41,221 nucleotides of DNA, from positions 1-41,221 of the forward strand of contig JAFGER010000008.1 in assembly GCA_016931495.1 (NCBI GenBank), written 5' to 3'. Positions 5,789 through 26,534 of the stretch are shown here, piece after piece. Position 1 is the stretch's first letter. Every line of letters begins with the position of its first letter. The stretch is from Chlorobiaceae bacterium. GTDB lineage: Bacteria; Bacteroidota; Chlorobiia; Chlorobiales; Chlorobiaceae. Position numbers and translations under genes: made by a program. Under the pieces are notes generated by a model, which saw only the letters and a program-made list of their open reading frames with translations, was not told where the DNA came from and did not search any database.

Positions 5789-6069
5789 TGACTTACTGCT
5801 ATCTGTCAGTTACTGAAAAATGATGAACTGACTATCAGGATTGTCAGGGGGAGGCAAAAGAAGAGGCCTGACGACAAGCGCCGTAAAACCGCAGCAATCA
5901 AAACAGAAGCACGCCCGAAACTGGCTGACGCAACCGGAAGCAAGGCTCAAGCCTTACTACAGTTGCCTGCCTGATGAACAGGTGTCGAAACGACGAATGG
6001 ATGAAGCACGGTTTTCACATGAATCTTTGCCTGAGACTATAAACCCGTAGTCCGTTATTTGTGCAAATG

Positions 6070-6287
6070 CATGACTGGCAGGTCTCCTGACTTTGACGGC
6101 ATCGAGCGCCTTCAGACCTTCCCGCAGTTTTCCGTGGAGGAAAACCGGCAGTGACCTGAAAGCCCGCCTTGCGGATCCGTGTGGCCACGGAATCTGCCCG
6201 GCGGTTAACCGTTGTACAGTTGCGGGTACAGTGTACGAATCTCACGTACTTCCCTATTCTCCGGCTTTTAAACCGGCACCTGTCATG
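6070..6287 (-). promoter_or_regulatory. Cobalamin (AdoCbl) riboswitch aptamer
   Basis: Reading the minus strand, the conserved cobalamin-aptamer blocks appear in order: AGGTGCC near the 5' end, GGGAAG, ACCCGCAACTGTAC, GTCACTGCC, and the B12 box AGTCAGGAGACCTGCC (plus-strand 6077-6092). The ends close as P1: CATGAC at 6282-6287 pairs perfectly with GTCATG at 6070-6075. The length (218 nt) is normal for the class. It sits upstream of the TonB receptor gene in the same direction and presumably shuts off the uptake operon when adenosylcobalamin is plentiful. Confidence 0.95.
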
Positions 6288-8190: not shown

Positions 8191-8235
8191 ACCCCGTTCA
8201 ACCACCATGGGGGTCAAACGGGGTATGTTTTTTTT
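8191..8235 (+). terminator. Hairpin with T-tract at the distal end of CRISPR array A
   Basis: ACCCCGTT at 8191-8198 pairs with AACGGGGT at 8217-8224; eight T residues follow at 8228-8235, overlapping the degenerate outer end of the last repeat. On the plus strand this is a classical intrinsic terminator, although no plus-strand gene precedes it. On the minus strand the hairpin follows the array trailer with a weaker T-rich tail and could end the pre-crRNA. Confidence 0.5.
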
Positions 8236-8635
8236 GACATTCGCTATGCGTGCAATGAAATGATAAGAAATAACGAAAAATCCGGCTTCCAGTCTGTATT
8301 TCGCTTATGTCGCAATACGCTATGCGTGCAATGAAATGATAAGCTGCGAGTGGCTTGCCATGAACCGCTCGGCACAAAGAGTCGCAATTCGCTAAGCGTG
8401 CAATGAAATGATAAGTCGCATTCACATTCGGCGCCGGTATTCCATACTTCGCGTGTCGCAATTCGCTATGCGTGCAATGAAATGATAAGTCGCTTACGAT
8501 ACAGCTCTTACCCTATTCGATTTTGAGGTCGCAATTCGCTATGCGTGCAATGAAATGATAAGAATGATGAAGGTATAGTTATTCCTGCTAAATCACCAGA
8601 GTCGCAATTCGCTATGCGTGCAATGAAATGATAAG
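8233..8635 (-). CRISPR. CRISPR array A: 6 repeats, 5 spacers
   Basis: 35-bp repeats at 8233-8267, 8309-8343, 8381-8415, 8455-8489, 8528-8562 and 8601-8635; spacers of 41, 37, 39, 38 and 38 bp. On the plus strand the repeat begins GTCGCAATTCG and ends GAAATGATAAG. The leftmost repeat is degenerate at its outer end, marking the trailer, so the leader is on the right and transcription is leftward. In that sense repeats end in ATTGCGAC, a typical type III 5' handle. The repeat at 8309 carries AATACG as in array B, and the one at 8381 has TAAGCG. Expression would depend on the cas6 and cmr genes elsewhere in the island. Confidence 0.97.
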
Positions 8636-8884: not shown

Positions 8885-9151
8885 TTACCACTCCGTCCGG
8901 TACGGTTCATACTCAGGCCGGGTGCCGTCGAGTACCTCTTTCATTTTCTGCGCCTGCATTTCCATGTGCCGACGGATGTTCATCGTCTTCCCGCTTGACG
9001 GGTCAAGAGCATCCTCCCACATCCTCTGCTCGAACACGGCCAGAAATGTTTCTCTCGCTTCATCCAGCAAAAAGAATCCACTCTTGTCTTTACGATAATA
9101 AAAATCCTTGTTTCTCAGAATCCCTTTGTCCTGTGGAGAAAGAAAACCGAT
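8885..9151 (-). pseudogene. cas1: Relic of a cas1 (probably RT-cas1) 3' end
   Basis: The frame reads ILRNKDFYY, then ETFLAVFEQRMWEDALDP, MNIRRHMEMQAQKMKEVL and EYEPYRTEW, closely matching the C-terminus of the intact RT-Cas1 at 13169 (ILRKKDFYY, TFLSVFERRMWENAVD, MNIRRHMEWQVHKLKDVL, EYEPYRTIG). Upstream the frame continues as IGFLSPQDKG, which aligns to IGFLHAEDKG of the intact protein, about 26 residues further N-terminal there, so an internal in-frame segment is lost. No RT domain and no remaining Cas1 is present; the E and D catalytic residues are gone. It sits beside array A exactly as the intact gene sits beside array B. Confidence 0.88.
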
Positions 9152-9170: not shown

Positions 9171-10031
9171 TCAAGTCATCGAGACAATTCGCAAGAGTGT
9201 CGCAAGCTTATCGGCAAAGAACGGAACACTCCACAGTTTGAGGCTTTGCTGGTATGCGGGCGGCAGGAACGGGGCGACATCCTGCGCGGCATCAGACCAG
9301 TTTATGGAAGCGATGGTTTCGTTCATTGCGGTGTCGAGCCAAGCCCCGCTGACGACTTGTTGCTTTCCCGCCCACGGGCCGTACTGGTTCAGGGCGTTTT
9401 CAAGAAGTTGCAGATTCGGAGAAACATTCTGGCTGACATACCATCCGAAGTCGAACCAGTCGCGTCCCTTGATAGAGGGGCGGCAAAGGAGTGCATGAAT
9501 CTTGAGGGAGAAATTGCTTGAGAGTGTCTGGGCGCAGAGTTCAAAATCGAGCGGAAAATCGAGATAACGGTATTCAAAATCCGAACCGTCAGGTGGCTGG
9601 GTATCGATTTCGAGCTTGACCTTCAATTTGCGCCCGCTTTGCGATTCGTAAAACGAAAGATTGAGCTGACGCGCAAATGAGTCGTCCTTCAGCAATGCCT
9701 GACGCACGGCGCGATCCATCTTCGTGCGATCCACAAGTTCGCACCGGATGCCGAAATCGGCCATGACCTTGCCGAGAGTGTCGAGATAGCTGCTCCACTG
9801 AAACTCCTTGTCAGGGGTACGCAGGATGAAGTCGAGGTTTTCAGAAAATCGTGGCAGCTCGTGCAAAATGCGGAGGGCGGTTCCTCCCTGAAAGGCGGCG
9901 GTCTCGAAAAAACCTCCACGCCACAACCCGTAAAGCGCGACATCCTGAAGAATCTCTTTAAGTGCCTGTTCCTCGTGCATTGCGTCCGGAGCCGCATAAC
10001 GCTCCAGGCGCTTTCGCAGCAGATCGATCAT
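9171..10031 (-). CDS. abiEii: AbiEii/AbiGii-family nucleotidyltransferase toxin
   Basis: A 286-aa toxin of a type IV toxin-antitoxin/abortive-infection system. The DNA-polymerase-beta-like nucleotidyltransferase motif is GGTALRILH followed by RFSENLDF (GG...R.S.DLDF pattern), and a later conserved basic element KIHALLCRPSIKGRDWFDF matches the family K..AL..R...RD..D motif. Relatives transfer nucleotides to tRNA acceptor ends and arrest growth during phage infection. The ATG overlaps the antitoxin stop by 4 bp. The gene ends 19 bp before the cas1 relic begins, so the pair occupies the place where the rest of that cas1 gene would have been. Confidence 0.9.
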   Translation of the reverse strand: MIDLLRKRLERYAAPDAMHEEQALKEILQDVALYGLWRGGFFETAAFQGGTALRILHELPRFSENLDFILRTPDKEFQWSSYLDTLGKVMADFGIRCELVDRTKMDRAVRQALLKDDSFARQLNLSFYESQSGRKLKVKLEIDTQPPDGSDFEYRYLDFPLDFELCAQTLSSNFSLKIHALLCRPSIKGRDWFDFGWYVSQNVSPNLQLLENALNQYGPWAGKQQVVSGAWLDTAMNETIASINWSDAAQDVAPFLPPAYQQSLKLWSVPFFADKLATLLRIVSMT

Positions 10032-10678
10032 CGGGCCAACTCCTTTTGCAGGGACGAGATGAACGCGCCCATGCGTTTGTGCTGATAAACCGGCCTCAAG
10101 CGTTGCAGATGCTCGTTATCAATGACTGAAAGTTCATCCTCATCGATGCGCATTCCTTCGATCAGACTTCCGAGGCCGGGGTAGTCGAGTTTGCGCAAGC
10201 AGAACAGGTCAAGCAGCGCCCGTAACGGTTGCGCTATCAGGCAACTGCGTCCCGCGAAAACTTCCCGATCCACTCCTTCCAGAAAGTAGCCCCTGTTCAG
10301 CGCTAACGGATAGTAGAGAAATTGACCAAAATCGGGAATATCAAGAGTTTGGCGTCGCCGATCCGGCGTGACGGACATCGTAACCGGCGTCGATTCGGGA
10401 ATCCAGCCATGAAAGCTGAGCGCGGTTTCAAACGAGATGTACGATCCGGGAAGGAGCGCTTGCGCCAGCGCGAAAGGGTGTGCCTTGGTCTGCTGCGCGG
10501 CTGATGCGAGCAGGTATCGCCCACGGCGCAAGCGCAGCAGTTCGCCCCGGTTCAACGCGCGGTTCACCAGATTGTACCGGCGTTGCGGCGTACCATCGAG
10601 CAAGCGGGCCAACTGCGCGTCAGTAATCACACGCCCGGCCAGTCCTGCTTTTTGGATGTGTTCTGTCAGCTTGCTCAT
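10028..10678 (-). CDS. abiEi: AbiEi-family antitoxin / transcriptional autorepressor
   Basis: A 216-aa protein with an N-terminal winged-helix (ITDAQLARLLDGTPQRRYNL, NRGELLRLRRGRYLLA) of the AbiEi_4/DUF4095 type and a C-terminal antitoxin domain (YISFETALSFHGWIPESTP, LIAQPLRALLDLFCLRKLDY). Family members repress their own promoter and neutralise AbiEii without direct complex formation. It is first in a two-gene operon, coupled by a 4-bp overlap. Inverted repeats at 10690-10713, just upstream, are candidate binding sites. Confidence 0.9.
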   Translation of the reverse strand: MSKLTEHIQKAGLAGRVITDAQLARLLDGTPQRRYNLVNRALNRGELLRLRRGRYLLASAAQQTKAHPFALAQALLPGSYISFETALSFHGWIPESTPVTMSVTPDRRRQTLDIPDFGQFLYYPLALNRGYFLEGVDREVFAGRSCLIAQPLRALLDLFCLRKLDYPGLGSLIEGMRIDEDELSVIDNEHLQRLRPVYQHKRMGAFISSLQKELAR

Positions 10679-10813: not shown

Positions 10814-12919
10814 CCCGCAATACGCTATGCGTGCAATGAAATAGAAAGTCCTCTCCGCTTTGCATGCGATAATCGCAGTGCGGGCATCGTGGTCGCAATA
10901 CGCTATGCGTGCAATGAAATAGAAAGAACTGGGTAGCATATCATTCAAAGAAATGTCTAGATATTGGTCTTGTCGCAATACGCTATGCGTGCAATGAAAT
11001 AGAAAGAATACTGGCGAGTGTCTCTTTTTCTCAGGGCTGTTCCCACAGTCGCAATACGCTATGCGTGCAATGAAATAGAAAGTATCTACCATCAATCAAC
11101 CACTACAGTCCGAGCAAGGCTAATCTTAAGTCGCAATACGCTATGCGTGCAATGAAATAGAAAGCGGAAATGGATACAGGCGACACGGAAGTAACGACAG
11201 AGTCAAACTAGTCGCAATACGCTATGCGTGCAATGAAATAGAAAGCGGTAGAGGAGCAAGTGATCGAGTGTGCAAACACGCTGTCGCAATACGCTATGCG
11301 TGCAATGAAATAGAAAGTTGTGTTGTCGCAGACCCAAGGAGGACAGATCCTGTTTAGTCGCAATACGCTATGCGTGCAATGAAATAGAAAGACGACGACT
11401 TTTCGACGAGATACCGGAAGTACGTTTCTGAGGTGTTGTCGCAATACGCTATGCGTGCAATGAAATAGAAAGGAGGTGAAAGCAATATTCACAACTATAA
11501 ACAGGAGGAAAAATGTCGCAATACGCTATGCGTGCAATGAAATAGAAAGTCCGGATTAGTGCTGACGATGGCGGAACCTGCCCGTGCTGGTCGCAATACG
11601 CTATGCGTGCAATGAAATAGAAAGAGCGGTATGCCGATCCGCCGAAGGATCATCGGTTTGGTCGCAATACGCTATGCGTGCAATGAAATAGAAAGTTCGC
11701 GGCTTCGATGGCGGTCGCCATCGAAGCCGCGAAACGAGATGATATCCGGATCCTCATCGAGGAGAGTCGCAATACGCTATGCGTGCAATGAAATAGAAAG
11801 GCGGGGCAGAAGCGGACGAAAACGGATATGGATATGAAGTCGCAATACGCTATGCGTGCAATGAAATAGAAAGTTTGGTTCAAAAGAGCATTTTCATATG
11901 TTAGTATTTAAAATACCTGATGGTCGCAATACGCTATGCGTGCAATGAAATAGAAAGCAGTGTAAGTATTGCTGCTAGGCCTGTTCATTCTGTTTGTCGC
12001 AATACGCTATGCGTGCAATGAAATAGAAAGTAGACGATTTTGTCGCGGCTATGGGGCAAAGTGAGTTGCAGGTCGCAATACGCTATGCGTGCAATGAAAT
12101 AGAAAGAATGCGGCCCACAAAGCAGAAAAGTATTTTATTTAAAGGGTCGCAATACGCTATGCGTGCAATGAAATAGAAAGTTCCTTTGGATTCCCAATGA
12201 ATAATTTGACCCTGGAGGTTGTCGCAATACGCTATGCGTGCAATGAAATAGAAAGATTTCCACCTCGGTGGTCAGTTGTGTGGTAGAGCACCGTCCAGTC
12301 GCAATACGCTATGCGTGCAATGAAATAGAAAGTGCCTCAATCATTCACATAGGCACCCCGATTCTCTCACAGAAGTCGCAATACGCTATGCGTGCAATGA
12401 AATAGAAAGCGACTGTTGTGGGCGACAGTGCCTCTTTCCTCTTTTGTCGCAATACGCTATGCGTGCAATGAAATAGAAAGTCTTTGCTGGCATACTGATG
12501 TTCGGCATGGTTTTCAGGCGAAGTCGCAATACGCTATGCGTGCAATGAAATAGAAAGCGCCGTAGTCACGCCTGACGCCACGATTGCCGGCAAGTCGCAA
12601 TACGCTATGCGTGCAATGAAATAGAAAGTCACTGCGCTCAATATGACGACCGGTGGCCGAAAGGAGAGTCGCAATACGCTATGCGTGCAATGAAATAGAA
12701 AGCCGGCGCACAGACACTCCTCAAGGGGATGAACGTAAGTCGCAATACGCTATGCGTGCAATGAAATAGAAAGCATTGAACGTACCGTCCGCCTCGAAGA
12801 CCTCATGGGGGAGTCGCAATACGCTATGCGTGCAATGAAATAGAAAGAGGCAAGTCGGTGTCTGAGGTCCGGGCCATGCTGGCTGTCGCAATACGCTATG
12901 CGTGCAATGAAATAGAAAG
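10814..12919 (-). CRISPR. CRISPR array B: 28 repeats, 27 spacers (type III-B)
   Basis: 35-bp repeats start at 10814, 10892, 10972, 11048, 11130, 11211, 11283, 11357, 11438, 11515, 11590, 11661, 11766, 11839, 11923, 11996, 12072, 12146, 12221, 12298, 12375, 12446, 12523, 12594, 12668, 12739, 12813 and 12885. All seem identical except the first (two outer mismatches), which marks the trailer at left; the leader and RT-cas1 are at right. Plus-strand repeats begin GTCGCAATACG and end GAAATAGAAAG. Read leftward, hairpin ACGC-ATA-GCGT is followed directly by ATTGCGAC, fitting Cas6 cleavage with an 8-nt handle. Spacers are 36-49 bp, except one of 70 bp at 11696-11765. Variable spacer length is usual for type III. 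Confidence 0.99.
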
Positions 12920-13168
12920 TGTACCCTTGAAAACGCTTGACTGGCGCGGGTTTGCGGGGGCGATTTCATAGAATCCCCCGTTTTCAGCGATTTCAAGGAA
13001 CATACGTTTGCTTGTCTGTGTCGTCGAGGCTTGTAACATCCTTCAAAATAATCAGTTAGAGCATATCATAGAATCTTTGTGTGGCGTATTTCCTGCATCT
13101 CATTGTTTTTAAATAAAATAGCTACTCTTGTGACTGCCCCGGACCGGTTCGTGAATTATCCTCTGGTT
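12920..13168 (-). promoter_or_regulatory. Leader region of CRISPR array B
   Basis: 249 bp without a gene between the leader-proximal repeat and the stop of RT-cas1. The middle is AT-rich (for example TTTTTAAATAAAATAG near 13107-13122). GATTCTATGA occurs twice on the minus strand. The part next to cas1 (AATTATCCTC-GGTTT) matches the equivalent place in leader A. It should carry the promoter for pre-crRNA and the site where RT-Cas1/Cas2 adds spacers. Confidence 0.65.
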
Positions 13169-15434: not shown

Positions 15435-15722
15435 ATGATGCGTTTTGTGCTTGTCACCTATGACATCGAAAATGATCGCCGAAGGACGAAAATCCACAAG
15501 CTCCTTGAGGGGTATGGTTCTGCCGTTCAGTACAGTGTGTTCGAGTGTTTCATTTCCGAGGAGGATTACGCAGAGATGAGACTGCGGCTCCAACGGCTGC
15601 TCGACGCCAACCATCCAGAGGACAGCGTTCGCTATTATGTGCTGTGCCGAACCTGCGTCGAACGAGTCGAAATCGACGGAAACAGGGATTTTGAAATTCA
15701 CAGCCCGTTTGTCATTTCGTAA
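15435..15722 (+). CDS. cas2: Cas2 adaptation endoribonuclease-fold protein
   Basis: A 95-aa ferredoxin-fold protein that bridges two Cas1 dimers during spacer integration. The N-terminal strand FVLVTYDIENDRRRTKIHKL contains the conserved Asp of Cas2 (YDI), then LEGYGSAVQYSVFECFIS and YYVLCRTCVERVEIDG follow the family pattern. Length is typical. A GGGAGA element precedes the ATGATG start. It opens the plus-strand operon and is divergent from RT-cas1 across 94 bp. Confidence 0.95.
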   Translation: MMRFVLVTYDIENDRRRTKIHKLLEGYGSAVQYSVFECFISEEDYAEMRLRLQRLLDANHPEDSVRYYVLCRTCVERVEIDGNRDFEIHSPFVIS

Positions 15723-16994: not shown

Positions 16995-18821
16995 ATGTCG
17001 AGTCAGCAGTACTTGTTTCTCTTTACCATCGGCCCCGTTCAGGGCTTCATAGAGCAGGCGCGCAAGACTCGTGATCTTTTTGCAGGGAGCCAGATTCTTT
17101 CTGTGCTAACTGATGCAGCGATGAACAAGGTTGCCGAGATTAACGGAACCAATTCGTTTGTTTTCCCTCACAAAGGTTCTACCTCAAAGCCCAATCGTTT
17201 TCTGGCCATAGTAAGCACCGATGATATTCAGGCATTTGGCGATGCGATCGAAGCAGCTGTCCGCACAAAATGGGCACGATTGGCGACCGAGTCATTTCAT
17301 TCGGCAGGGTTGCCTGAAAGCCTGCCGATCCTTGATGAGGCACTTATCGCTGATTTATCCAAACACTCTTGTCTTGAGCTTATTGCACGGCAATCATCCA
17401 TAGCTGCTCGCCAAATTGCGGAGTTTCCCGACGTCTATTGGGCAGCAATTGAGTATGATGGTACTGATTATGTTTCAAAGAGTAGTAAGCTGGAACAGCT
17501 CCTCGCTGGAGTGAAAAACGTCAGGATGTTTTGTCAGCTTAACGAGGAAGAGGGTAGCCGAAAGTGCGCTCTTGATGGGCAGCGTACAGCGCTCTTTTAT
17601 CGATCAGGTATTGATAAGAATGGGAAAGAACGAAAGCCAAATTATCTTTCGAATGAAAGCGACTCAATAAAAGGTACGCTATTGGATCCTGGAGAAGCCC
17701 TGAGCGCGGTCTCTCTGGTTAAACGGTATTACCGGAAAGATGAAAGAGGATTTCCATCGACAGCAGAGATTGCTATGATGGATCGCTGTTATAACAATGA
17801 AAAGAGCTGGGAAGATACCTGCAAAAAATATTTTGATTGCGAGGTTGACTATCAGTTATTCTATAAAGAGAACCTGACGAAAAAGAGTCTTGAGAAGCAG
17901 GGGATAAAAACAATAACAGACGCTGATCTTGATAAAATCAGCAACGATTTTTGTGCGCTTACGGGCAATAATCCGACAAAATATTATGCTTTGCTTCTGT
18001 TCGATGGAGATGATTTCGGGGAGCTTTGGTCTGGTGTAAGGCTTCATAAAGGAGCCAATCTGATGGATTTTCAGAGAAAACTGGCGGAACAGCTTCACAA
18101 CTATGCAGCAAAAGCTCGCTGTTGCCTGGACAAGCCGAAAGGGCAAGCCGTTTATACCGGCGGTGATGACTTTTTGGGGTTCGTCAATTTGAATTTCCTG
18201 TTCAAGGTACTGGCTGAGTTGCGCCAAACGTTCGATGAGATTGTCTCTGAGCCGCTGAGAGATGAGCTGATGGAGGGGAAAAGAATAACCTTTACAGCAG
18301 GAGTTGCGATTGCCCATTACAAGACTCCGCTTGGGGAGGTGCTTAAAAAGGCCAGCGCGGTGGAAAAACGGGCAAAAGAGCTTCGATCCGAAAAGGATGC
18401 ATACGGTATTGCTGTCATGAAGCACTCGGGTGAAACGCGAGAGGGCTTTCTTCCATTCAACAGTTCCGAACAGACTGATACCCTCAATGCCTTAAAGAGG
18501 GTAGTTGATGAGCTGCAACACCCGAAAGGTTTTTCAAATACTTTCATTCATGCATTTGCTCGGGAGATGCACTCTCTGGTGGACAGAGAAGAAGGAGCTG
18601 TTGGCCTGAATGACAAGGCACTGCGCACTGAACTTGGTCGGCTGCTTTCTCGTTCAGCGAAAACCTTTGGTAGCGAGAAAGAAAAAAAGGTCGATGATTG
18701 CCTTGAGGTTGTGGATTCATTGAGATACACCTCAGAAAGTGCCTTAGGAATACAGAATTTCCTCTCCATACTCGAAATCTGTGATTTCATCAAACGTGAA
18801 ACCTCGAAGGATCAGTTATGA
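16995..18821 (+). CDS. cmr2: Cas10/Cmr2, HD-less cyclase subunit of the type III-B complex
   Basis: The large subunit of the Cmr effector (608 aa). It opens directly with the Cmr2 motif TIGPVQGFIEQARKTRDLFA (11-30), so the N-terminal HD nuclease domain of longer Cas10 proteins is absent. Palm 1 contains LLLFDGDDFGELW (GDD at 338-340) and palm 2 the cyclase motif YTGGDDFLGF (GGDD at 389-392), both intact, predicting synthesis of cyclic oligoadenylates when target RNA is bound. It should not cut DNA through an HD site. The stop overlaps the cmr3 start as ATGA. Confidence 0.95.
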   Translation: MSSQQYLFLFTIGPVQGFIEQARKTRDLFAGSQILSVLTDAAMNKVAEINGTNSFVFPHKGSTSKPNRFLAIVSTDDIQAFGDAIEAAVRTKWARLATESFHSAGLPESLPILDEALIADLSKHSCLELIARQSSIAARQIAEFPDVYWAAIEYDGTDYVSKSSKLEQLLAGVKNVRMFCQLNEEEGSRKCALDGQRTALFYRSGIDKNGKERKPNYLSNESDSIKGTLLDPGEALSAVSLVKRYYRKDERGFPSTAEIAMMDRCYNNEKSWEDTCKKYFDCEVDYQLFYKENLTKKSLEKQGIKTITDADLDKISNDFCALTGNNPTKYYALLLFDGDDFGELWSGVRLHKGANLMDFQRKLAEQLHNYAAKARCCLDKPKGQAVYTGGDDFLGFVNLNFLFKVLAELRQTFDEIVSEPLRDELMEGKRITFTAGVAIAHYKTPLGEVLKKASAVEKRAKELRSEKDAYGIAVMKHSGETREGFLPFNSSEQTDTLNALKRVVDELQHPKGFSNTFIHAFAREMHSLVDREEGAVGLNDKALRTELGRLLSRSAKTFGSEKEKKVDDCLEVVDSLRYTSESALGIQNFLSILEICDFIKRETSKDQL

Positions 18822-19867
18822 GTTTTGTCGCTCTCAATGCGTTTGACACCCTCTTTTTTCGTGACGGCAAGCCGTTTTCGATGGGTGAAGAGACTTGGGC
18901 AAACGGTCTCTTTCCCCCTCCCCTATCCGTGGTGTATGGAGCGTTGCGTACGGCATACTTTTCAGAGCATATCGGGGAGTTAAAGAAGGCCAATCAGGTA
19001 GATGATCATACTTCTGATTTGAGAATAAATTTTTTCGCCTATCACGGAGGCGGCAAGTACTTTTATCCATGTCCTTTGGATATTGTTCGAAAAAAAGGCA
19101 AAAAAGGTGAGCAAGAGTTCAGCTTACTGGAACTCGTTGAACGGGGGTGCGATTCTTGCTCCAGTTTGGGGGAAGATTTGCCAATGCTGCTTCAATTTCA
19201 AGGGCAAGTGGAGGCGGCTTCAGGGTTGATTGATGAGATTTCACTAAATGAATACCTGCAAAACAGCTCGTTGCCTCCAGATCTTTTAAATATAGATAAT
19301 TACCTGCGAGAAGAGCCGAAAATCGGAATTAGCAGAAATAATTGTACAGGTTCCGCCGACGAGGGGATGCTATACAGGGTTGGAATGAAACGGATGAATG
19401 AGCTAAGTTTGGCGGTTGGGTATAGCGGACTTAATATTACAGGCTGTCTGATGCGACTCGGCGGAGAGGGAAAGTCAGTATCAGTTTCTGAATTGTATGA
19501 GAATCCGCATGTTCAAGGGGTGAGTGTATTGCAAGAAAAAGATGATTTCTTCAAGCTATATCTTGCGACTCCGGCGATTTTCAATGAAGGATGGCGTCCT
19601 TTGCCGTGTAAAATCCCTGGCGCAAAGCTTGTTGCCGCTGTTATCGGAAAGCCCTTGTATATCGGTGGCTTTGATATGAAGCTAAAAAAGCCAATAAACG
19701 GCCAACGCTCTTACCCTAAACCTATGCGACGGGCTGTTCCTGCAGGTAGTGTATATTACTATCAGGGGACTGCTGATGTTCAAGGAGATTCCATATCAGA
19801 TTATGGTGATAAACAGGGCTACGGCATTTATTATATTGGAAAGGTAAGCAAGGGGTATTCAATATGA
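18818..19867 (+). CDS. cmr3: Cmr3 (Cas5-group RAMP) subunit
   Basis: A 349-aa RAMP that caps the crRNA 5' handle end of the Cmr complex next to Cas10. The start is characteristic: FVALNAFDTLFFRDGKPFSM, then ANGLFPPPLSVVYGALRTAY, the usual Cmr3 beginning. Glycine-rich RAMP signatures occur near the middle and C-terminal half (GYSGLNITGC, KQGYGIYYIGKV). Length is normal for Cmr3. It overlaps both neighbours as ATGA: cmr2 upstream and the CARF nuclease gene downstream. Confidence 0.92.
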   Translation: MSFVALNAFDTLFFRDGKPFSMGEETWANGLFPPPLSVVYGALRTAYFSEHIGELKKANQVDDHTSDLRINFFAYHGGGKYFYPCPLDIVRKKGKKGEQEFSLLELVERGCDSCSSLGEDLPMLLQFQGQVEAASGLIDEISLNEYLQNSSLPPDLLNIDNYLREEPKIGISRNNCTGSADEGMLYRVGMKRMNELSLAVGYSGLNITGCLMRLGGEGKSVSVSELYENPHVQGVSVLQEKDDFFKLYLATPAIFNEGWRPLPCKIPGAKLVAAVIGKPLYIGGFDMKLKKPINGQRSYPKPMRRAVPAGSVYYYQGTADVQGDSISDYGDKQGYGIYYIGKVSKGYSI

Positions 19868-21156
19868 ATTGCATCGTGACAACTGTTGGAGCATCACTTT
19901 TCACAAATTATCTGGAAGTGTCTGATTTTATCAAAGCTGATTATAAGGCCATAAAAGATTCTTTGCATCAGGATTGGGATAATAAGCAAGTACGAATTAA
20001 TAGCATTAAGAAGCATGCCGACTTCAAGAACTGGATTTCTTGTAACCTCAAGGATTCGTGTGCGGAAATTGCAAGTTTGCTGAAAATAATTGAATGTCAA
20101 AATGAAGATGTGAGAATTCACTTGTTGGCAACTGATACGGTTCTCTCCAGGCTGGCCGCCGAATTGATTATGGAACAAACTATTAAACATCCGGTGACAG
20201 GCGAGGAAGTGACTATCGATTTTTACCCAAAACGGGATGTGATTACTGGTTTGAGGATTGATAATGCTGAAGTTTTCCAGACTGAAGGCTTGCATCAGTT
20301 TGTTAAGCGCTTTGCTGGCTTGAATAGCCAGTATGGGCCATTAATTCTTAATGTGACGGGTGGTTATAAAGGTTTGATCCCATATCTGACATTGATTGGC
20401 CAGCTCCATAAGGTGCCTGTAATGTACAAATTTGAGGAGTCTGAGGCTTTGATTACGATCCCGCAGTGGCCAATCAATTTTGATTTGGAACTTGTTGCTG
20501 ATTATGGTGATCAACTTTCTAATCTAAAAAATATTAATATTGACGATAAGTTGATTCTTGAGAAAAATCATCTTCTTGATACCGATGGTGAGCGAACAAC
20601 GCTTGGTATAATATTAACAGAATATGTTAAAGAGGTGGATAGAAGTAAATTTTTGAATGATAACCTCAGGGGCGATTGTGCTGAATTCCGATGGTATGAA
20701 TATTATGTTTCTGAATACCCTGGCTGGAAAGTGCGCAGGTCTGTTGGGATGGGACGTCAAGAAATTGCTGGAAAAAGAATAGAGAAAGAGGCTGATATTG
20801 TAATTGAGGGTGATGGTAAAATCATAATAGCTGAATCCAAATCATTAAAGTATATTTATAAGTTTGGGGAGAGGCTCAATACTCAAATAAGCGAATTATT
20901 GCGGGAGTTCAGGGAGGGTGGAATTGATGTTAATGAATATCATCTGTGTATGTACTCTGCACGTGCAGACTACATATCCGAGTACTCCCAAAACTCGACA
21001 ATATTGAGTGCGCAAAAGCTTGTTCACCAATGCTATCCTGATTGCAAGTTTGTTCTTAAATTTATGCGAAATGTTCTTGAGTTGCAGAGTTTTATGCATA
21101 AGTCTTTTTCGGATATACAAAAGGATATACAATCATTAACGTTATCAGCCACTTAG
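19864..21156 (+). CDS. CARF-domain PD-(D/E)XK nuclease, candidate cOA-activated effector
   Basis: 430 aa. The N-terminal half is a CARF domain: IVTTVGASLFTNYL at the first strand, VRIHLLATDTVLSRLAAEL, and the ligand-loop signature ILNVTGGYKGLIPYLTLIGQ (161-180). The C-terminal half (about 265-400) fits a PD-(D/E)XK nuclease: E274 in AEFRWYEYYV, D311 in EADIVIEGDG and E324-x-K326 in IIIAESKS. This architecture resembles Card1/Can2-type effectors, which cut nucleic acids when cyclic tetraadenylate is bound; ligand and substrate here are inferred. It is placed between cmr3 (ATGA overlap) and cmr4 (4-bp gap), inside the complex operon, and its sequence is clearly AT-richer than cmr2 or cas6, suggesting later insertion. 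Confidence 0.85.
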   Translation: MNCIVTTVGASLFTNYLEVSDFIKADYKAIKDSLHQDWDNKQVRINSIKKHADFKNWISCNLKDSCAEIASLLKIIECQNEDVRIHLLATDTVLSRLAAELIMEQTIKHPVTGEEVTIDFYPKRDVITGLRIDNAEVFQTEGLHQFVKRFAGLNSQYGPLILNVTGGYKGLIPYLTLIGQLHKVPVMYKFEESEALITIPQWPINFDLELVADYGDQLSNLKNINIDDKLILEKNHLLDTDGERTTLGIILTEYVKEVDRSKFLNDNLRGDCAEFRWYEYYVSEYPGWKVRRSVGMGRQEIAGKRIEKEADIVIEGDGKIIIAESKSLKYIYKFGERLNTQISELLREFREGGIDVNEYHLCMYSARADYISEYSQNSTILSAQKLVHQCYPDCKFVLKFMRNVLELQSFMHKSFSDIQKDIQSLTLSAT

Positions 21157-21160
21157 TGCC

Positions 21161-22180
21161 ATGTTTCGAGAAGCAACCCCACTCCTTCTGATATGCGAAA
21201 CGCCGCTTCATGCCGGTTCCGGTGATGACCTCGGTGTTGTCGATCTGCCGATCCAGCGAGAACGGCACACCTCATTTCCAAAAATCGAAGGCTCTTCATT
21301 GAAAGGAAGCTTGCGTGAGGCGTTTGAGAATAAATTGACTGAAACTGAGGAGCGCAAGAAAATTCATCTTGCCTTTGGGTACGATGACAAAACGCCCGAA
21401 GATAAAGCTGTTAAAGACCATTTTGGTGAAGACAAGCAGTTTCAAGGGGCATTGGGGTTCACTGATGCTCGTTTGTTGCTCTTTCCCGTAAAGTCGATGA
21501 AAGGGGTGTTTGCCTGGATTACCTGCAAGAGAGTGATTGAACAGTTCAGGAAAGATTTGGAGTTGAGTGATTGCAATTGGAATGGGGGCGTCCCCAAGGC
21601 AAACACCGTGCCTAACGTGCCCAATAAATGTGAGTTGTTGTTTTCGGAGAATAAGGTCGTTTTGGAAGAGTACACATTCAAAGTGACAATAGATGATGAT
21701 ACCACGAAATTGGCTCAATGGCTTGCAGATAAACTGTTTGAGCCGGGTTCTTACTGGCATGGACACCTCTCGAAAAACCTAGTGGTTTTGTCGGATGATG
21801 ATTTTACGGATTTTGTGAATTTGTCCACCGAGGTGATTACCAGAACAAAAATCAATAACGAGACAGGCACCGTTCAGGATGGAGCGCTCTTTACCGAAGA
21901 GTATCTGCCATCGGAAAGCGTCCTGTATTCACTTGCTCTGTTCAGCCCACTGTTCCACACAGATGATAAAATTAAACCCATTATGCCTGAAACATGGGAC
22001 GGGGTGCGTAATCAAGGAAAAGAGGTGGAGGCGGTTAAAGAGTTTTTTAAGAAAAGGCCGCCAGTCGTTCAGATTGGCGGAAATGCAACACTTGGCAAGG
22101 GGCTGGTCAGAACAAAATTAGTGACTTCAGTGGTGGAGACATCTCAAGATGCGGCTTCTTCGGGAGGAGATAAAGAGTGA
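21161..22180 (+). CDS. cmr4: Cmr4 (Cas7) backbone RNase subunit
   Basis: A 339-aa RAMP that forms the backbone filament and cleaves target RNA at 6-nt intervals. The N-terminal signature ETPLHAGSGDDLGVVDLPIQ contains the conserved catalytic aspartate (D28) in the VVDLPIQRE loop, followed by FPKIEGSSLKGSLREAF, the standard Cmr4 glycine-rich RAMP motif. Near the C-terminus VQIGGNATLGKGLVRTKL is also typical. RNase activity is thus expected. It ends in a GTGA overlap with cmr5. Confidence 0.95.
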   Translation: MFREATPLLLICETPLHAGSGDDLGVVDLPIQRERHTSFPKIEGSSLKGSLREAFENKLTETEERKKIHLAFGYDDKTPEDKAVKDHFGEDKQFQGALGFTDARLLLFPVKSMKGVFAWITCKRVIEQFRKDLELSDCNWNGGVPKANTVPNVPNKCELLFSENKVVLEEYTFKVTIDDDTTKLAQWLADKLFEPGSYWHGHLSKNLVVLSDDDFTDFVNLSTEVITRTKINNETGTVQDGALFTEEYLPSESVLYSLALFSPLFHTDDKIKPIMPETWDGVRNQGKEVEAVKEFFKKRPPVVQIGGNATLGKGLVRTKLVTSVVETSQDAASSGGDKE

Positions 22181-22653
22181 ACCAAAGACTTCAAACAGAG
22201 CGCAACCGGGCTGAGACCGCATACCGGTATGCAGATGAAGGCGTTAATAAGTATGGGAAGAAAACCTCAGGGCAGCAAGCTGATAATGGTGAGGGGAGCG
22301 ATGTAAATTACAAGTCAATTGTTGACAAGCTTCCGGCTCGCATACTCAATAACGGTTTGGGCGTTGCCGTAGCCTTTCATTTTTCAAAGAGCAAAAATAA
22401 AAAGGGAGAGGAGACTGTCTATGGCTATGTTTGCAATCAACTTCGTCAATGGCTGTTTGATCAGGGGCATGTTCAAGGAAGTGCAACCATATCCAAATTT
22501 GCCCGTGAAGTCGTGACGTTGTCGCCTGCAGATTCAAGGGCCGCAACCAACGAAGCTCTTGCATTTCTGACATGGCTACGGCGATTTACTGATGGGCTTA
22601 GTTCTCAATCAAACGATAACAGCAGTTCCGATGGAAGTACAGGAGAAAGCTAA
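22177..22653 (+). CDS. cmr5: Cmr5 small subunit
   Basis: An alpha-helical small subunit (158 aa) of the second filament of the Cmr complex. It begins with GTG overlapping the cmr4 stop: NQRLQTERNRAETAYRYAD, then YKSIVDKLPARILNNGLGVA and YVCNQLRQWLF, and the final LAFLTWLRRFTDGL, all in the family order. A low-complexity Asn/Ser/Gly tail (SSQSNDNSSSDGSTGES) follows. A glycine- and Gln-rich insert (KKTSGQQADNGEGSD) separates helices 1 and 2. The next gene overlaps its end and encodes a second Cmr5-like domain. Confidence 0.92.
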   Translation: MNQRLQTERNRAETAYRYADEGVNKYGKKTSGQQADNGEGSDVNYKSIVDKLPARILNNGLGVAVAFHFSKSKNKKGEETVYGYVCNQLRQWLFDQGHVQGSATISKFAREVVTLSPADSRAATNEALAFLTWLRRFTDGLSSQSNDNSSSDGSTGES

Positions 22654-23296
22654 ACTCTACCGGGATACAAAAGGAGTCTGGCGGGTAAGGGGGGTTAATG
22701 CAAAGAAGAAAGACAAGGGGATGGCTGTGCCACAAGCGTTGTTGAGTAAGCTGAATGAGGCTTGTGATGGAAAGGGCGTTACGGTTATGAAGATTGATGG
22801 CCAGATTAAAAAAGTTCTTTTTCAGGATGGTGACGTTCATGAGGTCGTTAAACAGGATACTCATAAGATGCAAGAATCAGAGCAATCACTTCGACAGAGT
22901 ATGCATGGGGATGCGGTATCATCTGAGGTGCAGGGTGATGGCGAAATGAGCTGTGCTGTTCTCGCCTATGAATGTGCATTGGATGTCCCTAAGAGTCTTG
23001 GAAAAGAGTATAAAAATCACGCGAAATCTCTCCCAATGATGATGCGTACCAATGGACTCGGTGCGACATTCGCTTATCTGGAAAGCAAGGAAAGCAAAGA
23101 TGGCAAGCATTTTGAGCGGCTCAAAGAAGACATCATGAAATTATTAAGAAAAATAGAGCCAAGTCTGGATGAGGAAAATCTTTCTTCACAAAGTCTGGCA
23201 GCGAGGGATTCGCGGGTCATCAAGGAGCTGACGAAAGAGACCATCCTTTTTTTAGGCTGGCTGAGTCGTTTTGCATCAGGTTTAATCGAGGGGTGA
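22631..23296 (+). CDS. Second Cmr5-like protein with an N-terminal extension
   Basis: 221 aa from the ATG at 22631 (another in-frame ATG is at 22592; neither has a clear Shine-Dalgarno). The C-terminal 120 residues match Cmr5: MSCAVLAYECALDVPKSLGK, KSLPMMMRTNGLGATFAYLE, and the end ETILFLGWLSRFASGLIEG. About 80 N-terminal residues (YRDTKGVWRVRGVNAKKKDK, then MKIDGQIKKVLFQDGDVHEV) have a beta-rich look and no counterpart in Cmr5. It overlaps cmr5 by 23 bp and ends 1 bp before cmr6. It may be a paralogous small subunit giving a mixed second filament, or a regulator that mimics Cmr5. Confidence 0.8.
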   Translation: MEVQEKAKLYRDTKGVWRVRGVNAKKKDKGMAVPQALLSKLNEACDGKGVTVMKIDGQIKKVLFQDGDVHEVVKQDTHKMQESEQSLRQSMHGDAVSSEVQGDGEMSCAVLAYECALDVPKSLGKEYKNHAKSLPMMMRTNGLGATFAYLESKESKDGKHFERLKEDIMKLLRKIEPSLDEENLSSQSLAARDSRVIKELTKETILFLGWLSRFASGLIEG

Positions 23297-23297
23297 A

Positions 23298-24443
23298 ATG
23301 ACAAAGAAGAACAAACAGACAATGGGTGGTGGAGCACATGCCTCTCTTCAAGATCAATTGATTGCCAAGAGAATGGCGACAAAAGAGCAGTTGCCAGCGG
23401 AAAGAATACCTCAAACACAGAAATTCGAACAAGAGAAGAATGATAAACCTCTGATTGGCGAGATATTTTTGCCTGCGGATACACAGGCTTTGTTAAAGGA
23501 TTGGGAGCCAGATAATTTTGCTTTAAAGCTCAATCGAAAAGTATTGTTTGTCTCTGATAAGCAAAATAAACCTCCCAAGCCTGCCCTGTTTAAGAGTAAA
23601 ACAAAGTATAATGATGCGTATAATGTTGATTTTATTTACAAAAAAAATCTGGTCGATTCAATTTCGGATAGGCACTTTGAGGCGATAAGAAGCTTGGGCT
23701 TGATATTGCATTGCGAGCCATTTATGACGGACTGGCGTCTCATTGTCGGGATTGGCAATGAATCGGTGTATGAAACATCCATGACACTGCATCATGTGCA
23801 TGGTTTTCCCTACATACCGGGCAACGCTGTTAAAGGTATTGTCAGAAGCTGGATTATCAATGAAATATTTGGTAATGTGGGGTCATGTCCGGATGAACTC
23901 GATTATCCTCTTGTTAACGCTGAATACAGGGCCTATCAGGATGAGGGATTTTGTCGCCTTTTTGGTTGCCCGGAAACGACAAGAAAAGTCGTGTTTGTAA
24001 ATGGCGCACCTGATAAGGTTAATGGTAATTACAGATACGAAACATATGAGACTGTCTTTAAAAAAGCACATCAAGGTAAAGTCATTTTTTTCGATGCTTA
24101 CCCCATCTCAATACCTAAGATTGAAACAGATATAATGAACCCGCATTTTAGTGACTATTACAGAGATCAGGCGGGAAAACAATCTCCCGCCGATTACCTG
24201 ACACCGGTTCCCATTCCGTTTCTGACGGTGAAGGCTACTACTTTCCGATTTATTCTCGGAATTAGGGAGAGTGAGAATAGCGTTATTCCCGAGGGTAGTC
24301 TTCTGGAGCGAGGCATACCACTGCTTGATGTCGCAAAACAGTGGCTAACAAATGCGTTAAGCGAGCACGGTATCGGAGCGAAAACGGCAGTAGGCTACGG
24401 GTTGATGTCTACATCACCAAAAAGCCAAAAAATAACAGATTAG
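23298..24443 (+). CDS. cmr6: Cmr6 (Cas7-group RAMP) subunit
   Basis: A 381-aa RAMP at the crRNA 3' end of the complex. The diagnostic region is WRLIVGIGNESVYETSMTLH, then HHVHGFPYIPGNAVKGIVRS, with the C-terminal HGIGAKTAVGYGLM glycine-rich element. The first 130 residues or so are a Lys/Gln-rich, probably flexible extension (KKNKQTMGGGAHASLQDQLI and onward), so the protein is longer than many Cmr6 homologs. GGGGTGA before the ATG serves as Shine-Dalgarno and overlaps the previous stop. Confidence 0.93.
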   Translation: MTKKNKQTMGGGAHASLQDQLIAKRMATKEQLPAERIPQTQKFEQEKNDKPLIGEIFLPADTQALLKDWEPDNFALKLNRKVLFVSDKQNKPPKPALFKSKTKYNDAYNVDFIYKKNLVDSISDRHFEAIRSLGLILHCEPFMTDWRLIVGIGNESVYETSMTLHHVHGFPYIPGNAVKGIVRSWIINEIFGNVGSCPDELDYPLVNAEYRAYQDEGFCRLFGCPETTRKVVFVNGAPDKVNGNYRYETYETVFKKAHQGKVIFFDAYPISIPKIETDIMNPHFSDYYRDQAGKQSPADYLTPVPIPFLTVKATTFRFILGIRESENSVIPEGSLLERGIPLLDVAKQWLTNALSEHGIGAKTAVGYGLMSTSPKSQKITD

Positions 24444-24465
24444 AGAATATATACATCTATCGATT

Positions 24466-25572
24466 ATGCACACCATCACGTTTACCTGCGAAATTATAAC
24501 CCCCATGTTTCTTGCCGGAGCTGATGGTTTAACACCGGAGCTTCGTGCCCCATCAATTAAAGGGGCGCTTCGCTTCTGGTGGAGGGCAATGCACGGAGAT
24601 ATGTCTGTATCAGACTTGAAAAAAGCCGAGACGGAGATTTTTGGTGGTGTTGGTGAAAACGCAAGACGCAGTTCAGTGACGATAAGTGTTGGTGAAAAGT
24701 GTCCTCCCATTGTGGTACATAACAATATTGGTATAGACCAACAGCAATGGCCGGGTACAGGTTATCTGTTATATTCAGTGCTATATATGCAAGAACGAGA
24801 TTGTTTTAAGACGGGTTCAGAGTTTATTCTTTCCATTTCATCATATAATCCGGAAAAGCTTAAGGAAGTTGTTAATGCATTTGTTTGTCTTGTTTTATTT
24901 GGTGGTATCGGAAGTCGCTCAAGGAGGGGGGCTGGATCAATTTTTGTAAAAGAAATCGGTGGCAATGCTAAAGATCAGCTTAAGGATATTACCAAGATTT
25001 TGAACATGTCAGAAATCGAGAACCCCAAACAGTTTGTTGCGCATTTGAAAAATACTATAAAAATTTTGGTTAACTCTTCTCCTGCCGAAGGTAGTTACTC
25101 AGCTTTAAATAGCTCATCCTTGTATGTTATGGAGCCAAAGGCAGACTGGCTACGGGCTCTTGAATTTATTGGGCTGAGATTTAAAAAAATAAGAGATAAT
25201 ATAAAACACGATGTTGGTGGAACACCCAACTTTGGCATTCCGGTTCAGCACTCTAAAAAGAGTGATAAGCCAAAACTGATGATGATTGCCGGAATAGCAT
25301 CTAAAGAAAGCGCTGATAACTGGAGGGTACATAAACTGTCTGAACGCAGAGCCTCTCCTCTCGTCATTAAAGTTATTAAAACGAAAAATAACCTATATTT
25401 TCCAGTTGCATTGCATCTTCAGGGGCAGTTCCTTCCCAAAGGTCAATTTATTCTTGATAAAAATGCATCTGTGTTAAATTTGGGTGGAGACAGAGCGTTG
25501 AGTCCAAATGACGGTTATATACAAAATAAATTTCTTGACACTCTCAAAGAAGGTGAATCAATAACTTTTTAA
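24466..25572 (+). CDS. cmr1: Cmr1 (Cas7-group RAMP) subunit
   Basis: A 368-aa RAMP that with Cmr6 caps the 3' end of the crRNA and helps target recognition. The N-terminus ITFTCEIITPMFLAGADGLT and ELRAPSIKGALRFWWRAMHG are the Cmr1 hallmark, and a second glycine-rich element GGIGSRSRRGAGSIFV follows at about residue 150. The gene lies 22 bp after cmr6 and is the last cmr gene; a 170-bp repeat-bearing gap then separates it from cas6. The gene is AT-rich like cmr3-cmr6. Confidence 0.94.
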   Translation: MHTITFTCEIITPMFLAGADGLTPELRAPSIKGALRFWWRAMHGDMSVSDLKKAETEIFGGVGENARRSSVTISVGEKCPPIVVHNNIGIDQQQWPGTGYLLYSVLYMQERDCFKTGSEFILSISSYNPEKLKEVVNAFVCLVLFGGIGSRSRRGAGSIFVKEIGGNAKDQLKDITKILNMSEIENPKQFVAHLKNTIKILVNSSPAEGSYSALNSSSLYVMEPKADWLRALEFIGLRFKKIRDNIKHDVGGTPNFGIPVQHSKKSDKPKLMMIAGIASKESADNWRVHKLSERRASPLVIKVIKTKNNLYFPVALHLQGQFLPKGQFILDKNASVLNLGGDRALSPNDGYIQNKFLDTLKEGESITF

Positions 25573-25742: not shown

Positions 25743-26534
25743 ATGCGCATAACACTCGAACTTTCACATCGTCATTCGTTTGTGACGGTGCCGATCAATC
25801 ACTCCTACCTGATCTCCTCCCTGATCTATAATGTCATCGACCGGAGTTCGAGCGAGTATGCGGAGCGGTTACATGAGCAGGGATACCGGCTGGAGAATCG
25901 GGCGTTCAAGTTGTTTACCTTTTCGCCTTTGAATCCGGGGCATCACCGGAAATGGGTGATGCACGAAAACGGGACGATGAGCACCAGAGAACGGCAGCTC
26001 CATCTGACGATTTCGTCGCCGAAGAATGAGTTCATCGAGCATCTGGTTCTCGGGCTGCTGCACGAGCCGTTTGTTTCGGTCGGCAAGGAGCGGTTCAGAG
26101 TCGAGACGGTCAGGAAGCTCGATCCGCCGCTGTTTTCAGGCGATATGCGATTCGTGACGCTCTCGCCGCTGGTGTGTGCGACAAAGAGCGAAGCAGATCA
26201 ACATCCGCAATACCTGTTTCCTGGCGATCCCGATTTCAAAAGAGTGCTCGTGGCCAACCTTTGCCGGAAGTACGAGGTTCTGCACGGCAAGCCGATTGCC
26301 TGCAATGAGGATGTGGTGACATTTGAACTCGATCCCGATTACTTGTCCAGAGTGAATGGCAAGGTCCAAAAGCTGATCACCCTGAAGGAGGGGCGAAGCG
26401 ACGAGTCAAAAGTAAAGGGAACGCTCGCGCCGTTTCGGCTGGTGGCTCCTCCAGAGCTGATCGAAGTGGGCTACGAATGCGGGTTCGGCGAAAAGAATGC
26501 GCAAGGTTTCGGGATGGTCAAGGTCAGCTCTTGA
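25743..26534 (+). CDS. cas6: Cas6 pre-crRNA endoribonuclease
   Basis: A 263-aa RAMP endoribonuclease that should cut each repeat 3' of its hairpin. The C-terminal glycine-rich loop GFGEKNAQGFGMV is diagnostic of Cas6, and the double ferredoxin-fold layout is seen in RITLELSHRHSFVTVPINHS, YNVIDRSSSEYAERLHEQGY and QLHLTISSPKNEFIEHLVLG. The catalytic histidine cannot be assigned from sequence alone. It is GC-rich, like RT-cas1 and unlike the cmr3-cmr1 genes before it, and is set apart by 170 bp. It converges with the unknown gene at 26543, with only 8 bp between. Confidence 0.92.
   Translation: MRITLELSHRHSFVTVPINHSYLISSLIYNVIDRSSSEYAERLHEQGYRLENRAFKLFTFSPLNPGHHRKWVMHENGTMSTRERQLHLTISSPKNEFIEHLVLGLLHEPFVSVGKERFRVETVRKLDPPLFSGDMRFVTLSPLVCATKSEADQHPQYLFPGDPDFKRVLVANLCRKYEVLHGKPIACNEDVVTFELDPDYLSRVNGKVQKLITLKEGRSDESKVKGTLAPFRLVAPPELIEVGYECGFGEKNAQGFGMVKVSS

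Follow-up and report, generated by a model that had tools for sequence, protein, structure and literature searches.

The window analysed here, a stretch of 41,221 nucleotides (nt) from a Chlorobiaceae bacterium, carries a CRISPR locus whose adaptation gene encodes a reverse transcriptase (RT) fused to Cas1, and the larger of its two repeat arrays, array B, holds a spacer of 70 nt that is the subject of this analysis (Table 1). With an RT fused to Cas1, Cas2 nearby, Cmr effectors and Cas6, the locus has the composition of an RT-Cas1 type III-B system, and RT-linked spacer acquisition by type III-B systems was reportedly described by Silas in 2016. The translation of the fusion contains, by eye, the sequence FADD, which we take to be the RT motif. 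The array-B repeat at the left end has two changes, and in the closest relatives the repeats read as ending in GGATTGAAAC or GGATTGCGAC. These repeat ends and the aligned right flank place the leader on the right and the CRISPR RNA (crRNA) on the minus strand, so that the 70-nt spacer, the twelfth from the left, is the sixteenth counted from the leader.

Table 1. Features of the CRISPR locus in the window, with the parts of the 70-nt spacer.
Feature	Position	Strand	Basis
Array A, 6 repeats	8233..8635	-	strand from repeat similarity (putative)
CRISPR array B, 28 repeats of GTCGCAATACGCTATGCGTGCAATGAAATAGAAAG, 27 spacers	10814..12919	-	array parsing
Outlier spacer, 70 nt	11696..11765	-	sequence; strand from repeat and leader comparison
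Outer arm, putative fold-back copy	11696..11713		analogy with L074
Loop GT, 2 nt	11714..11715
Inner arm, putative template for the copy	11716..11733
32 nt beyond the hairpin, start of the crRNA guide	11734..11765
Array-B leader side	12920..13168	-	alignment to the upstream flank of the first repeat in five relatives
RT-Cas1 fusion, 723 aa	13169..15340	-	Pfam RVT_1 3e-38, Cas_Cas1 3.1e-89
Cas2	15435..15722	+	PF09827, 2.9e-23
Type III-B effectors: Cmr2, Cmr3, three RAMP proteins, two Cmr5, plus a Cas_APE2256 protein	16995..25572	+
Cas6	25743..26534	+	PF01881, PF21350

The remaining 26 spacers of array B measure 36-49 nt, and perfect inverted repeats within them reach 6 nt at most. In the 70-nt spacer, a perfect hairpin of 18 base pairs (bp) with the loop GT fills the first 38 nt and lies flush with the repeat; its arms are complementary at 18 of 18 positions, and pairing ends at the repeat/spacer junction, where the G at 11695 stands opposite the A at 11734. 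An earlier sequence-only reading of this DNA had singled out the spacer as a length outlier, and the extent and arms it gave were exact. It had also argued, from an open frame running from the second arm onward, that this part was the original fragment; in fact one frame stays open across the entire 70 nt (23 codons, no stop), and it therefore cannot tell which part is original. In crRNA sense the order is 32 nt, an 18-nt arm, AC and an 18-nt arm, which, given the minus crRNA strand, makes the hairpin the 3' end of the crRNA. Folding of the repeat-spacer-repeat RNA predicts a hairpin with 17 pairs and a 4-nt loop (z -5.5); the initial 32 nt of the guide take no part in it and are predicted to form two small hairpins themselves. 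Because these 5' 32 nt are left free of the hairpin, the suggestion that the crRNA would fold on itself is weak. In type III systems crRNAs undergo trimming at their 3' end, so this spacer may still be usable as a guide. Perfect hairpins with arms of at least 18 bp and loops of at most 6 nt numbered only 11 outside arrays in 2.66 megabases (Mb) of RT, control and test loci, some of which overlap, and a chance origin of a hairpin of at least 18 bp flush with a spacer end is therefore unlikely.

We consider it probable that the 70-nt spacer is a recorded snap-back product, made most likely by the RT of RT-Cas1. Evidence for such a history comes from a sister spacer with a traced source. Locus L074 is an RT-Cas1 array in the metagenome-assembled genome (MAG) of an uncultured Chlorobiaceae, with the same spacers as G260:C66, and the seventh of its eight spacers is 51 nt long (the others 34-40 nt) and bears a flush 11-bp hairpin with a 1-nt loop. 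The 28-nt unpaired part of this spacer occurs twice in G260, once in the array and once at C50:1845-1872, and the source at the second site is identical to spacer positions 8-51 (44 nt) and then diverges: read on the antisense strand, ACATAACCCCGCCGGG is followed by TTGACC in the source and by GTTATGT in the spacer. The source lacks the outer 7 nt of the spacer, which form an exact reverse complement to the ACATAAC lying upstream on that strand. The breakpoint falls at the end of a natural inverted microhomology in the source, CCCG-C-CGGG, where the 3' GGG is able to pair with CCC across a 3-nt loop, and the lengths agree, a 44-nt prespacer plus a 7-nt copy making 51. A random 7-nt addition would match in this way with a chance of 6e-5, which is not a P value, since the spacer was picked for its hairpin.

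In L074, then, an inverted copy of the fragment's own end was added to an ordinary fragment. Later mutation is hard to invoke as the cause, because the added stretch lies exactly at the prespacer end. A different possibility is that the protospacer of a flush spacer already had its hairpin, as a terminator or other RNA stem, and that RNA fragments ending at hairpin bases gave rise to such spacers. This natural-stem origin is excluded for L074, whose source holds only 4 of the hairpin's 11 bp. The source lies within an open reading frame (ORF) of at least 714 aa carrying a DUF4347 domain and adjoining genes that appear, judged from their translations, to serve fatty-acid synthesis; these neighbours suggest that the source is probably host DNA or mRNA. 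Viral contigs gave no L074 source. The folded strand is antisense to the source ORF, as expected of a first complementary DNA (cDNA) strand.

For the 70-nt spacer itself, no source was found in its own genome (assembly 92.65% complete), in 100 relatives searched by DNA (partial weak matches in 25 at E <= 0.1), in 60 relatives searched by protein (one weak partial match, E 0.49), in viral contigs searched with one 18-mer and two degenerate patterns, or in PHROGs. The protospacer search of phages and plasmids that the sequence-only reading had proposed gave no source by DNA or by protein, only weak partial matches at E <= 10 in 4 phage and 49 plasmid records. The best weak match, in L009, covers the palindrome centre only, and we set the weak partial matches aside as chance, none of them spanning the whole spacer. 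Two relatives hold partial look-alikes of the palindrome's centre, G070 (93% across spacer bases 10-36, E 3e-4) and G079 (89% across bases 7-33, both strands, E 0.03); these speak for a natural stem, as do the 11 perfect genomic hairpins of at least 18 bp counted above. The missing source says little, since virtually none of the RT-linked spacers of Arthrospira could be traced (PMC5513706). Among other hairpin spacers, searches for those in L043, L045, L075 and L256 gave the array copy alone or nothing, as did those for L236 and L247, with host chromosomes outside the search. Matches to an 18-mer of the L045 spacer in four viral contigs were rejected as its source, with 22-25 of 44 positions identical.

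The question of whether terminal inverted duplications recur in other RT-Cas1 arrays, which the sequence-only reading had raised, was addressed by a survey in which a flush hairpin has an arm of at least 7, a loop of at most 6 and no gap to the spacer end. The first RT set was assembled from genome searches plus one profile scan (80 loci kept from 257 relatives); the array finder returned 94 array readings, some arrays twice, with 1067 distinct spacers, of which 52 were dropped as presumably mis-cut (repeat <33 nt or median spacer >45), leaving 1015. Two later RT sets served as tests: 13 loci on plasmids (RT-Cas1 fused in ten, RT and Cas1 encoded by neighbouring genes in three) and ten further loci that the profile picked out within the window's phylum, from which the same rule removed 7 of 324 and 2 of 136 spacers. 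The control comprised 80 RT-free cas1 loci of that phylum, with 2632 spacers; the dropping rule was not used on it, and would leave 504 spacers with 0 flush hairpins. Expected counts derive from hairpin density outside arrays in 80 of the RT loci. Most RT loci come from MAGs. When the 123 loci of the RT set were searched one by one with profiles, 109 proved to have an RT fused to Cas1, 5 an RT adjacent to it, 7 Cas1 only and 2 RT only, and the 95 of 1466 RT-set spacers at Cas1-only loci (L052, L067, L068, L258, L262) include 0 flush hairpins. The same kind of search found no RT in any of the 80 control loci, 17 of which also carry a Cas1 too distant for the profile. One non-RT array, L193 (G172), was parsed repeatedly by the finder and de-duplicated by sequence; at about 5251-6081, some of its repeats are split by a 20-nt insert with a small palindrome (CCCGCCAGGGCGGGACAAGT).

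In the first RT set, the longest hairpins are strikingly flush with the spacer end, with 9 flush hairpins observed against 2.11 expected at arm >=7 and 5 against 0.39 at arm >=9, whereas the control stands at expectation (6 against 6.28 and 1 against 1.68). The two later sets together hold 4 against 1.13 expected (P 0.028). Over all RT sets, 13 of 1466 spacers carry a flush hairpin against 3.24 expected (P 3.5e-5; 12 and P 1.4e-4 without the window). The RT sets also exceed the control (Fisher p 0.0038; 0.0074 without the window), and the difference persists at loci with a verified RT (13/1371, p 0.0024; 0.0049 without the window), at those with fused RT-Cas1 alone (12/1270, p 0.0031), and, in raw counts, among spacers of at least 34 nt (11/1278 in the RT set vs 4/1925 in the control). 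Counted at 0 to 8 nt from the nearest spacer end, hairpins in the RT set number 13, 7, 3, 5, 3, 2, 3, 3 and 3, those in the control a flat 6, 5, 4, 4, 2, 6, 5, 4 and 5; the RT-set excess is confined to 0-1 nt, and the counts at 2-8 nt are near expectation.

Of the RT-set spacers, nine are longer than their array median by 10 nt or more, and four of them (the 70-nt spacer and those in L074, L043 and L247) carry a hairpin of at least 7 bp within 0-1 nt of the end, a position at which 20 of all 1466 RT-set spacers have one. The four control spacers that exceed the median by as much all hold altered repeats and include 0 terminal hairpins of that size. Three hairpins, at L043:13322, L247:21106 and L256:206, sit exactly 1 nt off the spacer end, two of them in long outliers; the offset could possibly represent an untemplated nucleotide added after a fold-back copy. 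The spacers at L256:206 and L256:277 are neighbours in one 14-repeat array, the former with the 10-bp hairpin 1 nt from the end and the latter with an 8-bp flush hairpin, and no source was found for the latter. A control spacer of normal length, L180:2344, has a flush 12-bp hairpin, and such spacers are therefore not exclusive to RT arrays.

These distributions bear on how the hairpins arose. A natural-stem origin would likewise be RT-specific, and it draws some strength from a mild rise in imperfect flush hairpins, but RT spacers show no general hairpin excess away from the outermost 0-1 nt, and the 70-nt spacer is a length outlier as well as a hairpin; we regard this origin as improbable for it. 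A variant of the snap-back reading assigns the fold-back, still before integration, not to the RT but to a host DNA polymerase working on single-stranded DNA. The product would look identical, and flush hairpins do occur in 6 of 2632 control spacers; that number is, however, the genomic expectation, and the RT arrays lie above it, which leaves the host enzyme an unlikely, if still credible, agent. Quasipalindrome template switching is a known source of inverted duplications, and it could in principle have acted after integration, during replication of the array. It should then affect non-RT arrays equally, and these have no excess; moreover, the copy stops exactly at the repeat/spacer junction both here and in L074, and it is the flush position that is in excess, so we think this very unlikely. 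Nor do we give much credence to an artefact of assembly or amplification. The window's assembly is fragmented (106 contigs), and RT loci are mostly from MAGs, but the repeats on either side of the 70-nt spacer are intact, and similar spacers occur in independent assemblies that include plasmid records described as complete (L236, L247).

Several observations weigh against the snap-back reading. Only one of 8 searched hairpin spacers, that of L074, was traced, and the addition of an arm to the 70-nt spacer would follow by analogy, no source having been found for it. The flush-hairpin criterion was picked after the first RT set had been viewed, and each later set alone is non-significant (P 0.06 and 0.21). 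Alternative thresholds put the comparison of RT with control at p 0.010-0.029, or at 0.025-0.061 when the window is left out. Control arrays differ from RT arrays in subtype and spacer length. Five of the nine long RT outliers lack a terminal hairpin (L098, two in L260, L261 and L262, the last a Cas1-only locus). When perfect flush hairpins were compared with imperfect ones (arm >=9, one non-pair) as a means of separating snap-back from natural stems, RT arrays held 8 imperfect ones where 3.6 were expected over both sets. Natural RNA hairpins would produce such a rise as well, and part of the flush hairpins may accordingly be natural stems. Finally, for M. mediterranea RT-Cas1/Cas2, snap-back followed by loop cleavage is a route that the authors of its study cannot exclude yet argue against (PMC11014452).

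If the 70-nt spacer is nevertheless a snap-back product, as we favour, the starting strand would have been an ordinary prespacer of about 50-56 nt on the window's minus strand. Its 3' end would have carried a short inverted microhomology, for which GGCG..CGCC flanking the AC/GT loop is the probable candidate. This end would fold back, anneal and be extended along its own strand until the copied arm reached 18 nt, and RT-Cas1/Cas2 would then integrate the extended molecule at full length. The polymerase would most likely be the RT of RT-Cas1, acting on cDNA or another single strand. That this spacer shares the history of the L074 spacer we infer by analogy. Copying before integration is suggested by the RT association, the flush position and published in vitro snap-back activity. 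That activity, together with the RT-specific excess and the flush position, makes the RT the likeliest polymerase. The earlier idea that an inverted copy was added to an ordinary fragment holds for L074 and fits the flush excess in RT arrays but lacks a source at the window, and the idea of RT self-priming gains the RT-array association and the in vitro precedent, with the part of the RT itself still inferred. The starting molecule may have been RNA or cDNA.

Three further observations concern the surroundings of the arrays. Near array A, positions 8895-9129 are a 71% copy of the 3' end of RT-cas1, which looks like a leftover of a second, decayed adaptation module. Between arrays A and B, at 9171-10678, lies a gene for an AbiEii-like toxin (PF08843) with an upstream partner gene without a Pfam match. 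At 22177-23296, two overlapping consecutive genes both match Cmr5.

Tentatively, and with less conviction than we attach to the 70-nt spacer, fold-back-primed synthesis may be a regular side route by which RT-Cas1 obtains integrable prespacers from single strands, in which case natural arrays would hold self-templated chimeric spacers. If so, part of the untraceable RT-Cas1 spacers may be fold-back products, and the breakpoints of such products would reveal which strand and which priming had been used. The route from RNA to an integrable duplex in RT-Cas1 systems is not settled, and fold-back scars would be natural records of the synthesis step, from which priming site, strand and copy length could be read and which can be sought in existing acquisition libraries. 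Such scars would also mean that a spacer and its source can differ, a point of consequence for protospacer searches and for RT-Cas1-based RNA-recording tools. Published descriptions of fold-back scars in natural arrays were not found among titles and abstract openings, with subscription papers and preprints outside the scope of the search.

The closest biochemical parallel is RT-Cas1/Cas2 of M. mediterranea, which forms snap-back DNA on unblocked 50-nt RNA and DNA templates, while a protein with the RT deleted gives no such products and RNA-linked products mostly stop short of the template 5' end (PMC11014452). As proposed here, the 3' end folds on short complementarity and the self-copy, on templates of about 50 nt, is often incomplete; unlike those in vitro products, the present cases lie in natural arrays, and one breakpoint can be read against its source. 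RT-linked type III-B acquisition (PMC5513706) likewise joins an RT with Cas1 and Cas2, a III-B effector and mostly untraceable spacers, the difference being that here, as read in L074, spacer sequence is partly absent from the source. The group II-like RT G2L4 offers a third comparison, since it primes snapback on a 2-nt microhomology, although G2L4 is a DNA repair enzyme with no CRISPR association (PMC12337344).
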